From: Streptomyces sp. RKND-216
Lineage (GTDB): Bacteria; Actinomycetota; Actinomycetes; Streptomycetales; Streptomycetaceae
Length of the DNA stretch: 64,000 bases
Assembly (NCBI RefSeq): GCF_004795255.1
Contig: NZ_SSBQ01000002.1
Coordinates: 2,234,001-2,298,000, forward strand
Reading direction: 5' to 3'
The notes under the pieces were generated by a model. The model ran no database searches, had not been told where the DNA came from, and was given only the letters and a program-made list of their open reading frames with translations. The position numbers were made by a program, and so were the translations under genes. This document shows positions 45,118 to 47,331 of this stretch, one piece after another (the stretch's first letter is position 1; each line of letters opens with the position of its first letter).

Positions 45118-45777
45118 CTACAGGAGAGCGGCGATCTCGGCCGCCGTCCACCGCATCGCCGCCCCGGGTCGCCGCGCCAGGTGCGCGGCGATGCGGGCGG
45201 CCGGCCAGGCGTGCGACACCTGCAGCCCCGAGGCCAGCCACCGCAGGTACGCGGCCGCCGGCGGCCGCCACGCCACGTCGCCCATCCCCCACGGAGCGGT
45301 GAAGGTGAGCACCGGGCGCCCGTCCAGCGATCCGGGGCAGACCAGCGTCTCGTAACAGCCCGACCCCATCCGGGACCGGCCCTCCGCCAGCACCCCGGAG
45401 AGGTCCAGGTCCGCCCCGGGCGGGCGGTGCATCTCCTGCGCCGCGATGTCGGAGAACTGCCGCGCGCTGATCAGATAGGCCCGGGCCGGCGTCTCACCGC
45501 GGGCGCCCGGGTCGTAGAAGGCCATACCTCCGGTCCACGCGGGCGACTCCAGTGCGAAGTACACCTGGCCCGGCAGCATGATCGGTTCCGTGCGCGGGGG
45601 ATCCTGCGGCTCACGGCACCCCGGATACGTCCGCCTGCCGCCCGGCGGCTTCCCGCCGCGCAGGTAGAAGCCGAGCCGCGTGTGGTGCAGGTTCGACCCG
45701 TAGGCCGCGTACCACACGTGCTCCGTGTCGGCGCCCTCCGCCCGCCTCGGGCCGAGCCGCCGCAACTGTCTGCTCAT
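45118..45777 (-). CDS. YGSNL protein, gamma-glutamylcyclotransferase-like
   Basis: The 219-residue protein has WYAAYGSNLHHTRLGFYL near residues 22-39. The YGSNL motif marks the gamma-glutamylcyclotransferase-like (AIG2/ChaC-like) fold. The usual active glutamate may be in GETPARAYLISARQ. Some databases call relatives histone deacetylase, which the sequence does not support. It is cytosolic with no signal. It converges with the SDR gene, 12 bases apart. The substrate is unknown. Confidence 0.85.
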   Translation of the reverse strand: MSRQLRRLGPRRAEGADTEHVWYAAYGSNLHHTRLGFYLRGGKPPGGRRTYPGCREPQDPPRTEPIMLPGQVYFALESPAWTGGMAFYDPGARGETPARAYLISARQFSDIAAQEMHRPPGADLDLSGVLAEGRSRMGSGCYETLVCPGSLDGRPVLTFTAPWGMGDVAWRPPAAAYLRWLASGLQVSHAWPAARIAAHLARRPGAAMRWTAAEIAALL

Positions 45778-45993
45778 CCGTCCCCAGCGTAGGGGGCAGC
45801 CCCCGCAGCCCCCGGGAAGGCCGCCGGTCCACGACGCATGGCACGGCTTCTCGCCGCCTTCTCGCATCGCCGCCGGTCGTCAGACGTGCCGGTCCGGGCG
45901 ATCTGTGGACACAATGACGTCATGGCCGAGTCACCCTCCACCTGTCCCGAGCCTCACTGCTCGCTGCTGTCCGTGTGGTCGAAGGACTCGGTG

Positions 45994-46140
45994 TTGTCGG
46001 TCGGTTCGGTGGGGTCGGTCCTTTCGATCGGGTCCGTCGGCTCCGCCCTCTCCGTCGGCTCAGTCGGGAGCACCCTGTCGGTCGGCTCAATCGGCTCTGC
46101 CCTGTCGCTGATCTCGGCCGGATCGTGGCTGAGCACGGGA
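45994..46140 (+). repeat. 27-bp tandem coding repeats
   Basis: Diverged tandem copies of a 27-base unit encode the nine-residue motif VGSxLSxGS. They start near 45997 and fade by about 46140. Copies differ mainly at third codon positions, which suggests selection on the protein rather than recent slippage. Confidence 0.6.
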
Positions 46141-46268
46141 TCTCTGCTGTCCGCCCGATCGCGGTGGTCGGTGCTGTCCTGGGCCTCCTCGCGGGGCTTC
46201 CTGTCCGCCGGGACCATGGGTGCGGTGGCCGGAACCGGCTTGGTTCTGGCCCGGGCGATCTACGGGCC

Positions 46269-46274
46269 GCTAGC
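46269..46274. repeat. Target site duplication, left (GCTAGC)
   Basis: GCTAGC at 46269-46274 is repeated at 47326-47331. It fits NCTAGN, the known 6-bp target duplicated by IS481. Confidence 0.85.
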
Positions 46275-47225
46275 TGTATTGACCCGGAGCGTTGTTCACA
46301 CGGCTGATCGGTGGCTGGCCGCCGAGTGCGGTGTGGCAGCGGTGGTGGTTGTAGGTGTGCAGGAAGTCTTGCAGAGCTGCGGTCCGCTGCTCGTTGCTGG
46401 TGTAGGGCCGCAGGTAGGCCCATTCGTCGAGCAGGGTGCGGTTGAAGCGTTCGACCTTGCCGTTGGTCTGCGGTCGGTAAGGGCGAATGCGTTTGCTGGT
46501 GGCGCCGAGGTAGGTCAGGGACTGCTTCCAGAGGGTGCTCTTGCGGTAGGACCAGGCGTTGTCGGTCAGCACCCTTTCGATGCGGTCGATGCCGAGGGCG
46601 GCGAAGTGGGCGGCGGCTCGGCGGAGGAAGCCTGCGCAGGTGGCGGCCTTCTCGTCGGGTGGACCTCGCTGTAGGCGAGGCGGGTGTAGTCGTCGACGAC
46701 GGAGTGGATGTAGTCGAAGCCGACTCCGGTCTTGGTCAGGCGGCTTTCCGCGCGGCCGTGGACACGCCAGCCGCCGCCGTCGGGAATCCGCCCGAGTTTC
46801 TTCACGTCCACGTGCACCAGCTCGCCGGGCCGCTCGCGTTCGTAGCGGCGAATGATGCGCCCGGTTGGCCGGTCCATCCAGGCCAGCCGGTGCAGGCCGT
46901 GCCGGGTGAGGATCCGGTGCACGGTCGAGGGCGGCATGCCCAGGATCGGGCCGATGCGGGCGGGTCCGAGTTTGCGTTCGGTCCGCAGCCGGCAGACCCG
47001 TGCTTCGGTATCGGCATCGGTGCGGTGCGGTGTCGTGTGCGGGCGGCTGGGGCGGTCACACAGGCCCGGCTCGCCCTCGGCTCGCCACCGGTGGACCCAC
47101 TTGTGGGCCGTGGCCCGGGATATGCCCATCTCCGCAGCCACATGGGCCACCGGGCGGCCGGAACGGACACGATCGACCAGCAGACGCCTGCCCAAAGGAG
47201 TCAGACGGGCATTACGGTGGGACAC
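46270..47225 (-). pseudogene. IS481-family transposase, frameshifted
   Basis: The N-terminal part starts with GTG at 47225 (VSHRNARLTPLGRRLLVDRV), with GGAGG five bases upstream. It has an HTH (VAHVAAEMGISRATAHKWVH) and the first two catalytic aspartates (ELVHVDVKKL and VVDDYTRLAYSEVHP). The third part, LTDNAWSYRKSTLW to NGKVERFNRTLLDEWAYL with the catalytic glutamate, is in another frame. Adding one base in the GGG run at 46657-46659 (plus sense) restores one continuous protein. The final TAG stop lies in the GCTAGC target duplication, outside the element. As it stands the transposase should be inactive unless frameshifting occurs. Confidence 0.85.
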
Positions 47226-47325
47226 GAAGGCCTCCGTGCGGTGAAGATTCGACACCTCCACCACACACGGAGGCCTTCGCCATGATCAAGACCTGTGAGT
47301 GTCAACAACGCTCATGAGCAATACA
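46275..47325 (-). mobile_element. IS481-family insertion sequence, 1,051 bp
   Basis: The element is bounded by imperfect 27-base terminal inverted repeats: TGTATTG at each outer end and GAGCGTTGTT inside, with 22 of 27 identical. It is flanked by direct GCTAGC copies. The length and the single DDE transposase gene read from the right end fit IS481. The target duplications are intact, so this was a simple insertion without a flanking deletion. It splits the xxS-repeat gene. Confidence 0.88.
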
Positions 47326-47331
47326 GCTAGC
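47326..47331. repeat. Target site duplication, right (GCTAGC)
   Basis: This is the second copy of the 6-base target duplication, directly after the right end of the insertion sequence. Confidence 0.85.

Follow-up and report, generated by a model that had tools for sequence, protein, structure and literature searches.

A gene of Streptomyces sp. RKND-216 encodes a protein in which serine stands at every third residue within nine-residue units, and this triplet protein almost certainly represents a real protein family encoded on the plus strand. Judged from its sequence, the protein is small and belongs to an Actinomycetota family that has not been described.

A serine-triplet gene shortened by an insertion sequence

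The gene lies in a 64,000-nucleotide stretch of the genome, referred to here as the window. Translation of 45922-46274 on the plus strand gives 117 residues; the coding sequence, delimited by translation, homologue search, a serine-run script and codon comparison, occupies 45922..46272 up to an insertion sequence. Its core (residues 14-89, 45961..46188, plus strand) is built of nine-residue units with a serine at each third residue. A previous inspection of the letters alone (the sequence-only reading) had listed serines at 14, 17, 20 and on to 89 without a miss, and the script run on the window frame indeed returned an unbroken run of 26 in-phase serines from residue 14. The nine-residue unit proposed in that reading was recovered by Tandem Repeats Finder as a 27-base (9-codon) period with 4.2 copies at 45995-46107. 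A hydrophobic tail, defined by translation and hydropathy, follows the core (residues 92-117, 46195..46272, plus strand) and is shortened by the insertion. Opposite the triplet gene, a minus-strand frame at 45954-46217 is also open for 87 codons. For a further minus-strand frame, upstream of the gene and divergent from it (45118-45867), Pfam and NCBIfam searches gave no match at E<=1. The window genome holds a single copy of the triplet gene.

The insertion sequence is of the IS481 type and extends over 46275..47325 on the minus strand, as established from open reading frames, Pfam/NCBIfam matches, flanking repeats and genome copies. It is bordered by two copies of the duplicated target GCTAGC, at 46269..46274 on the left and 47326..47331 on the right. 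The element has been recently active, and the copy at 46275-47325 has a transposase split over two frames (46270-46572 and 46566-47264). Three more full-length copies, listed as 100% identical and each longer by one base, are present in the window genome, together with truncated relatives and relatives of 70-76% identity. According to the list of open reading frames, the triplet frame reads on into the element (46273..46674, plus strand), where its stop codon is located at 46672-46674. Since the element is placed after codon 117, it leaves the repeat whole and substitutes no more than the last part of the tail. The claim of the sequence-only reading that the gene had been broken by an insertion sequence thus holds at the extreme 3' end and does not extend to the repeat, which is intact.

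Homologues and their distribution

Searching a protein database with the window protein identified 707 homologues at E<=0.01, and a broader profile gave 1,514 matches at E<=1e-5 among 7,987 candidates scored. Among the best 120 of each search, members with a named source belong to Streptomyces, Kitasatospora, Kribbella, Nocardia, Rhodococcus, Trebonia and Streptodolium; Micromonospora contributed one genome locus. The genome samples contain the window's own genome. With a limit of E<=1e-6, 72 of the 296 Actinomycetes genomes sampled had a profile match (36 of 114 genera); 55 of the 72 reach 1e-14, and some of the 17 weaker matches may be to serine-rich proteins of another kind. At E<=1e-8, matches were present in 56 of the 199 Streptomyces genomes sampled; in a sample of 198 Actinomycetota genomes there were 12, five of them from outside the class Actinomycetes. 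This patchy distribution agrees with the earlier description of the gene as accessory. The serine-triplet pattern is kept in 20 loci from other families, and the five loci from other classes have 14 or 15 of 15 serines in phase. Since homologues retain the period, it is more than chance; loss of the xxS period among homologues had been named in advance as the outcome that would speak against a protein-level feature, and the period was found to be conserved.

One match per genome was seen in 54 of the 56 Streptomyces genomes with the gene. The other two are G464, the sole genome among them with two separate strong copies (G464:C6:139106-139384 and G464:C31:722703-723017), and G015, with two overlapping pieces at one place. 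In two database proteins (P0016 and P0162), precomputed domains show the triplet core joined to DUF4291 and PF04978; these may be chance frame fusions.

Serine positions, repeat length and coding strand

Serine accounts for 98.4% of in-phase residues in 80 sequences (79 genome loci and the window) and for 3,771 of 3,904 in-phase positions in 161 database proteins, both figures being counted within runs that allow single misses and hence biased towards serine, and the 161 including the window's own protein and some genes shared with the genome-locus set. The first residue of the xxS triplet is mostly V, A, I or L and the second mostly G or L. Glycine makes up 38.8% at one non-serine position, and histidine makes up at most about 0.5% at the two non-serine positions. 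The in-phase misses among the 3,904 positions were Ala (74), Cys (24), Gly (11), Pro (8), Arg (8), Thr (3) and others (5). Alanine and threonine are each one base away from TCN serine codons, and threonine retains the hydroxyl of serine while adding a methyl group. Threonine is thus as easily reached as alanine, and its near absence in phase suggests that the position restricts the size of the side chain more than it requires the hydroxyl. The replacement pattern, as read from these sequences, suggests tight packing.

Entry and exit motifs are separated by a whole number of nine-residue steps in 124 of the 127 proteins that could be assigned, with 74 of 201 left unassigned; the entry anchor may fall inside the repeat, which makes separate length classes unreliable and leaves the multiple of nine alone as usable. 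DNA slippage would also yield nine-residue steps. The end motifs, rich in W and S, recur in the family. One locus (L077) lacks both the usual exit motif and the tail; it continues instead in an unrelated frame rich in proline and arginine, as would follow from a frameshift.

The coding strand was assessed by codon comparison of 80 aligned genes. Codon differences in the core occur at the third position in 0.404 of comparisons, at the first in 0.144 and at the second in 0.069. In the 26 serine columns, synonymous differences amount to 0.438 and non-synonymous ones to 0.019; the corresponding values in the other core columns are 0.311 and 0.216. Both TCN and AGY codons are used in 7 of the 26 serine columns. 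Stops were found in 45, 4 and 14 of 80 loci in the core's three antisense frames, so two of these frames are mostly open. The pattern of codon change fits coding on the plus strand, in agreement with the sequence-only reading that the feature lies at the protein level, and on the same sequence comparison the antisense frame at 45954-46217 is not the conserved frame. That there is no protein gene at all, merely a GC-rich DNA repeat open by chance, might be argued from the 27-base repeat itself and from the 87 open minus-strand codons in the window. We consider this hardly conceivable, because the core differences concentrate at third codon positions, TCN and AGY codons are mixed within serine columns, all three antisense frames carry stops in some loci, and the pattern also appears in the 20 loci of other families and the five of other classes.

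Variable tails

Many members are predicted to have one C-terminal membrane helix. A 19-residue hydropathy of 1.6 was taken as the membrane-helix threshold. Among tails long enough to score, this value was reached by 57 of the 77 from genome loci and by 48 of the 100 from database proteins. It was exceeded in 4 of the 20 loci of other families, and the best listed 19-residue hydropathy in the shortened tail of the window protein is 1.18, under the threshold. AlphaFold2 placed a helix at 94-118 of one relative, with a pLDDT of about 78 over its last 19 residues. The ending H-x-Q-S/T/C was observed in 18 of 244 sequences, including all six members named Nocardia or Rhodococcus (P0055, P0102, P0128, P0133, P0150 and P0153). 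This short conserved tail stands there instead of a membrane helix, and two genome loci (L126 and L127) end likewise. Some members stop shortly after the core. As the hydrophobic helix tail is present in many relatives and absent in others, the triplet core is the constant part. The predicted C-terminal membrane helix, with no N-terminal signal sequence seen, would leave the core facing the cytoplasm.

A promoter-like box at fixed distance from the start codon

In the window, the sequence CACAAT (45910..45915, plus strand) lies six bases 5' of the ATG and was recognized in an upstream alignment as a candidate -10-like box of a leaderless-type promoter. The alignment comprised 71 dissimilar regions joined at the ATG, 9 of 80 having been left out as near-duplicates; the locus without an identifiable ATG (L077) was excluded from start-based counts and the window's own locus (L001) from locus counts. 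A is found at -11 in 67 of the 71 regions and at -8 in 64, T at -7 in 67, and G is common at -15 to -13 (49, 51 and 52). The resulting NANNAT at -12 to -7 occurs in 63 of the 71 regions, compared with 87 of 8,646 ATGs of the same loci, family members counted in, and 3 of 193 neighbour starts, a rough control since the neighbour frames come from a simple script. The first base of the box is C in 53 and T in 14 of the 71 regions. No excess of a -35 box over shuffles was seen in these regions (2.63 versus 2.58 matching bases). With a first base that is mostly C and no -35 box, this is not a textbook promoter. Of the 20 loci of other families, with up to the last six ATG/GTG codons considered in each, 6 have NANNAT in place and 10 NANNNT; in the two loci with H-x-Q-T tails neither was in place.

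A Shine-Dalgarno reading of the box was tried and rejected: a four-base purine word is found in 30 of the 71 regions, but a CAGGAT box already brings one with its own AGGA. The variants TACGAT and CACAAT contain no purine word, and the box is read as a promoter on that account. Of the starts mapped in S. coelicolor, 80.4% were reported to have a TANNNT -10 box and 58.6% an NTGACC -35, and 21.0% of primary starts to give leaderless mRNAs (PMC4895711); in a second paper, TANNNT about 12 bases 5' of the start codon is interpreted as a mark of leaderless genes (PMC3160421). The family box looks promoter-like and appears to be placed as in genes with leaderless mRNAs.

Genomic neighbourhood

The immediate neighbours of the 79 loci fall into 113 clusters. 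In a Pfam scan of 85 of these, 28 having been dropped by size beforehand, no family occurred in more than two. Sequence comparison assigns the triplet gene no conserved gene partner and usually one copy per carrying genome. At 18 loci the same conserved exported-protein gene lies upstream, and 13 of these also have an ABC-F gene, presumably EttA-like, downstream. This exported-protein/ABC-F site was examined in eight genomes: both genes lie within 1.5 kb in six, whereas the sequence examined from the remaining two did not contain the second gene. Three of the six, the window's own included, have the triplet gene elsewhere. The gaps at the site in two of these three genomes and in one genome without the gene contain no serine-triplet frame, the best having 6 of 12 serines in phase. 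In a genome that lacks the triplet gene (G007), the site is 795 bases wide (L119:2964-3759) with no visible remnant. The site is occupied in some species and empty in the window's own genome. Among the five other-family genera with at least two loci, context is shared in two and not in three. The varying neighbours and the filled or empty site indicate that the triplet gene often moves or is lost. Carriage by phage or plasmids was considered and set aside, with no match in phage records, none in viral contigs and the gene in two plasmid records.

Structure models and alternative readings

Two AlphaFold2 runs were performed, one with an alignment of 118 of 121 proteins (P0029, P0034 and P0112 left out) with the window protein as its first row, and one with 63 rows, in which 20 database proteins and the target were joined by 42 genome loci out of a further non-redundant set of 53. 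The mean pLDDT was 52.9 and 51.7, respectively, and ten-residue blocks of the core ranged over 40-61 and 39-58. The first run gave one low-confidence helix at residues 46-114, and in the second the core is mostly coil with almost no helix. Neither model contains strands or a confident core fold, and the two do not separate the solenoid, the polyproline-II-like rod and the packed membrane helices put forward in the sequence-only reading.

We tentatively propose, with well less than even confidence, that the protein associates with itself into a rod or assembly in which packed serines provide the cohesion, that the tail ties it to the membrane in many members, and that it has no fixed partner. 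The strict period of three together with the demand for a small residue would favour a helix with three residues per turn, or a packed solenoid, over an alpha helix or a plain strand. The nine-residue units might stack or wind into a rod whose serine face, requiring a small side chain, would pack on neighbouring strands or molecules; the Trp-containing end motifs could cap the rod, and the tail, where present, would anchor the assembly to the membrane. Acting without an operon partner, the protein would serve as a scaffold or patch-former, and swapping the tail between helix, H-x-Q-S/T/C ending and almost none may alter the site of attachment. This proposal is consistent with the serine columns (0.438 synonymous versus 0.019 non-synonymous), the Ala, Cys and Gly misses with threonine nearly absent, the multiple-of-nine distance in 124 of 127 assigned proteins, the recurring end motifs rich in W and S, the hydrophobic tails (57/77 and 48/100) with the predicted helix at 94-118 of a relative, and the spread of neighbours over 113 clusters. 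Against it, the lack of an ordered core in AlphaFold2 also fits plain disorder, the tail exceeds the membrane threshold in 4 of 20 other-family loci and reaches 1.18 in the window, and the nine-residue steps have slippage as another source, with 74 of 201 proteins unassigned. The wider claim of a new structural class appears to us rather doubtful: a serine-triplet rod or solenoid of nine-residue units, ordered only between molecules, membrane-tethered in many Actinomycetota, as a rule encoded by a single copy per genome with a built-in leaderless start, and recurring at unrelated positions. Order arising only between molecules would account for there being no single-chain model.

The same core could instead be embedded in the membrane as long small-residue helices packed through Ser and Gly. 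These would oligomerize into a patch or pore, bounded by terminal Trp/Arg belts and followed by one more helix at the C terminus. The mean core hydropathy (0.70 in 80 sequences, 0.78 in 118), the 19-residue core windows reaching 1.6 in 15 of 80 and 46 of 118, and the low-confidence helix at 46-114 agree with such an arrangement; nevertheless, it seems rather unlikely to us, as the median best core window (1.52 and 1.54) falls slightly below the threshold, nine-residue changes would alter the crossing lengths, the second AlphaFold2 run is almost free of helix in the core, and an exact period of three gives an alpha helix no constant face. It is distinctly less probable that the protein forms cross-beta, amyloid-like fibres with a role in signalling or at the surface. 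The core is rich in V, I, G, S and A, and fibre formers commonly lack a single-chain model, as is the case here, but neither AlphaFold2 model has strands, threonine, which suits beta structure well, hardly ever occurs in phase, and no partner gene recurs. Very unlikely is a role as a substrate with enzymatically modified serines, as proposed by name for His-Xaa-Ser repeat systems. HxsA4 is the only NCBIfam model to match most members tested, with scores between 17.4 and 27.9 bits for 7 of the 9, yet its cut-off is 55 bits; TIGR03978, which we take to be HxsC (radical SAM) and which was the only partner model tested, is above cut-off in 1 of 296 genomes versus 72 of 296 for the triplet protein, that one (G345) being among the 72 with the two on different contigs; and no neighbour family occurs in more than 2 of 85 clusters scanned. 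The joint occurrence in G345 (G345:C22:6128-7516) is probably chance.

A family found across much of a bacterial phylum, with a very strict three-residue period, has so far neither name nor model. Were the core an ordered rod, it would offer a simple repeat for design and a new test case for structure prediction; were the protein a membrane scaffold, it would belong to unstudied actinobacterial cell biology, and laboratory Streptomyces would allow its deletion and tagging. Because the box keeps its distance from the ATG while the surrounding upstream DNA is unrelated, these genes provide a clean natural set in which to study leaderless expression.

Comparison with known systems

No member-level match to the triplet protein was obtained in Pfam, NCBIfam, PHROGs, PADLOC or PDB sequences, which bears out the sequence-only reading that it belongs to no named family. 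The window protein matched 0 Pfam families; among 118 members, Pfam matches appeared in two alone, one each to DUF4291 and EGF_Tenascin. Seven members matched 0 families in PHROGs or PADLOC, and the PDB sequence search gave 8 rows, the two alignments shown being GSAGSAGS and GSTGSTGS stretches. In the literature searched, four peptide words of the repeat appeared in no paper, the phrase 'serine every third residue' was absent from the 8 papers listed out of 41,057 with either term, and no title or opening of an abstract in further listings concerned the triplet protein. The family is without a name in the libraries, solved structures and papers searched; at most it works like other triplet-repeat proteins and is a member of none tested.

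HxsA4 (NF038313) shares Ser-containing three-residue repeats with the triplet protein and is the sole NCBIfam model to match most members tested, but two of the nine gave no match and the other seven fall well short of its cut-off. Unlike His-Xaa-Ser proteins, the triplet family has no His repeats, its other positions being mainly V/A/I/L and G/L. RTX repeats have a nine-residue unit as well, comparable to the 27-base period and the multiples of nine in 124 of 127 proteins; their consensus is the calcium-type Gly-Gly-x-Gly-x-Asp, whereas no such motif appears in an alignment of 29 triplet members, and Pfam gave no match. Left-handed beta-helices, which are built of hexapeptide repeats, resemble the triplet core in having small and V/I/L residues in a short period, but the period here is three within nine and not six, again with no Pfam match. 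The polyproline-II-bundle antifreeze proteins of springtails, as described in PMC10235112, likewise consist of a tripeptide repeat, with three residues per helix turn; the repeated residue there is Gly, whereas the triplet family holds Ser at 98.4% of its constant position and Gly at 38.8% of another.
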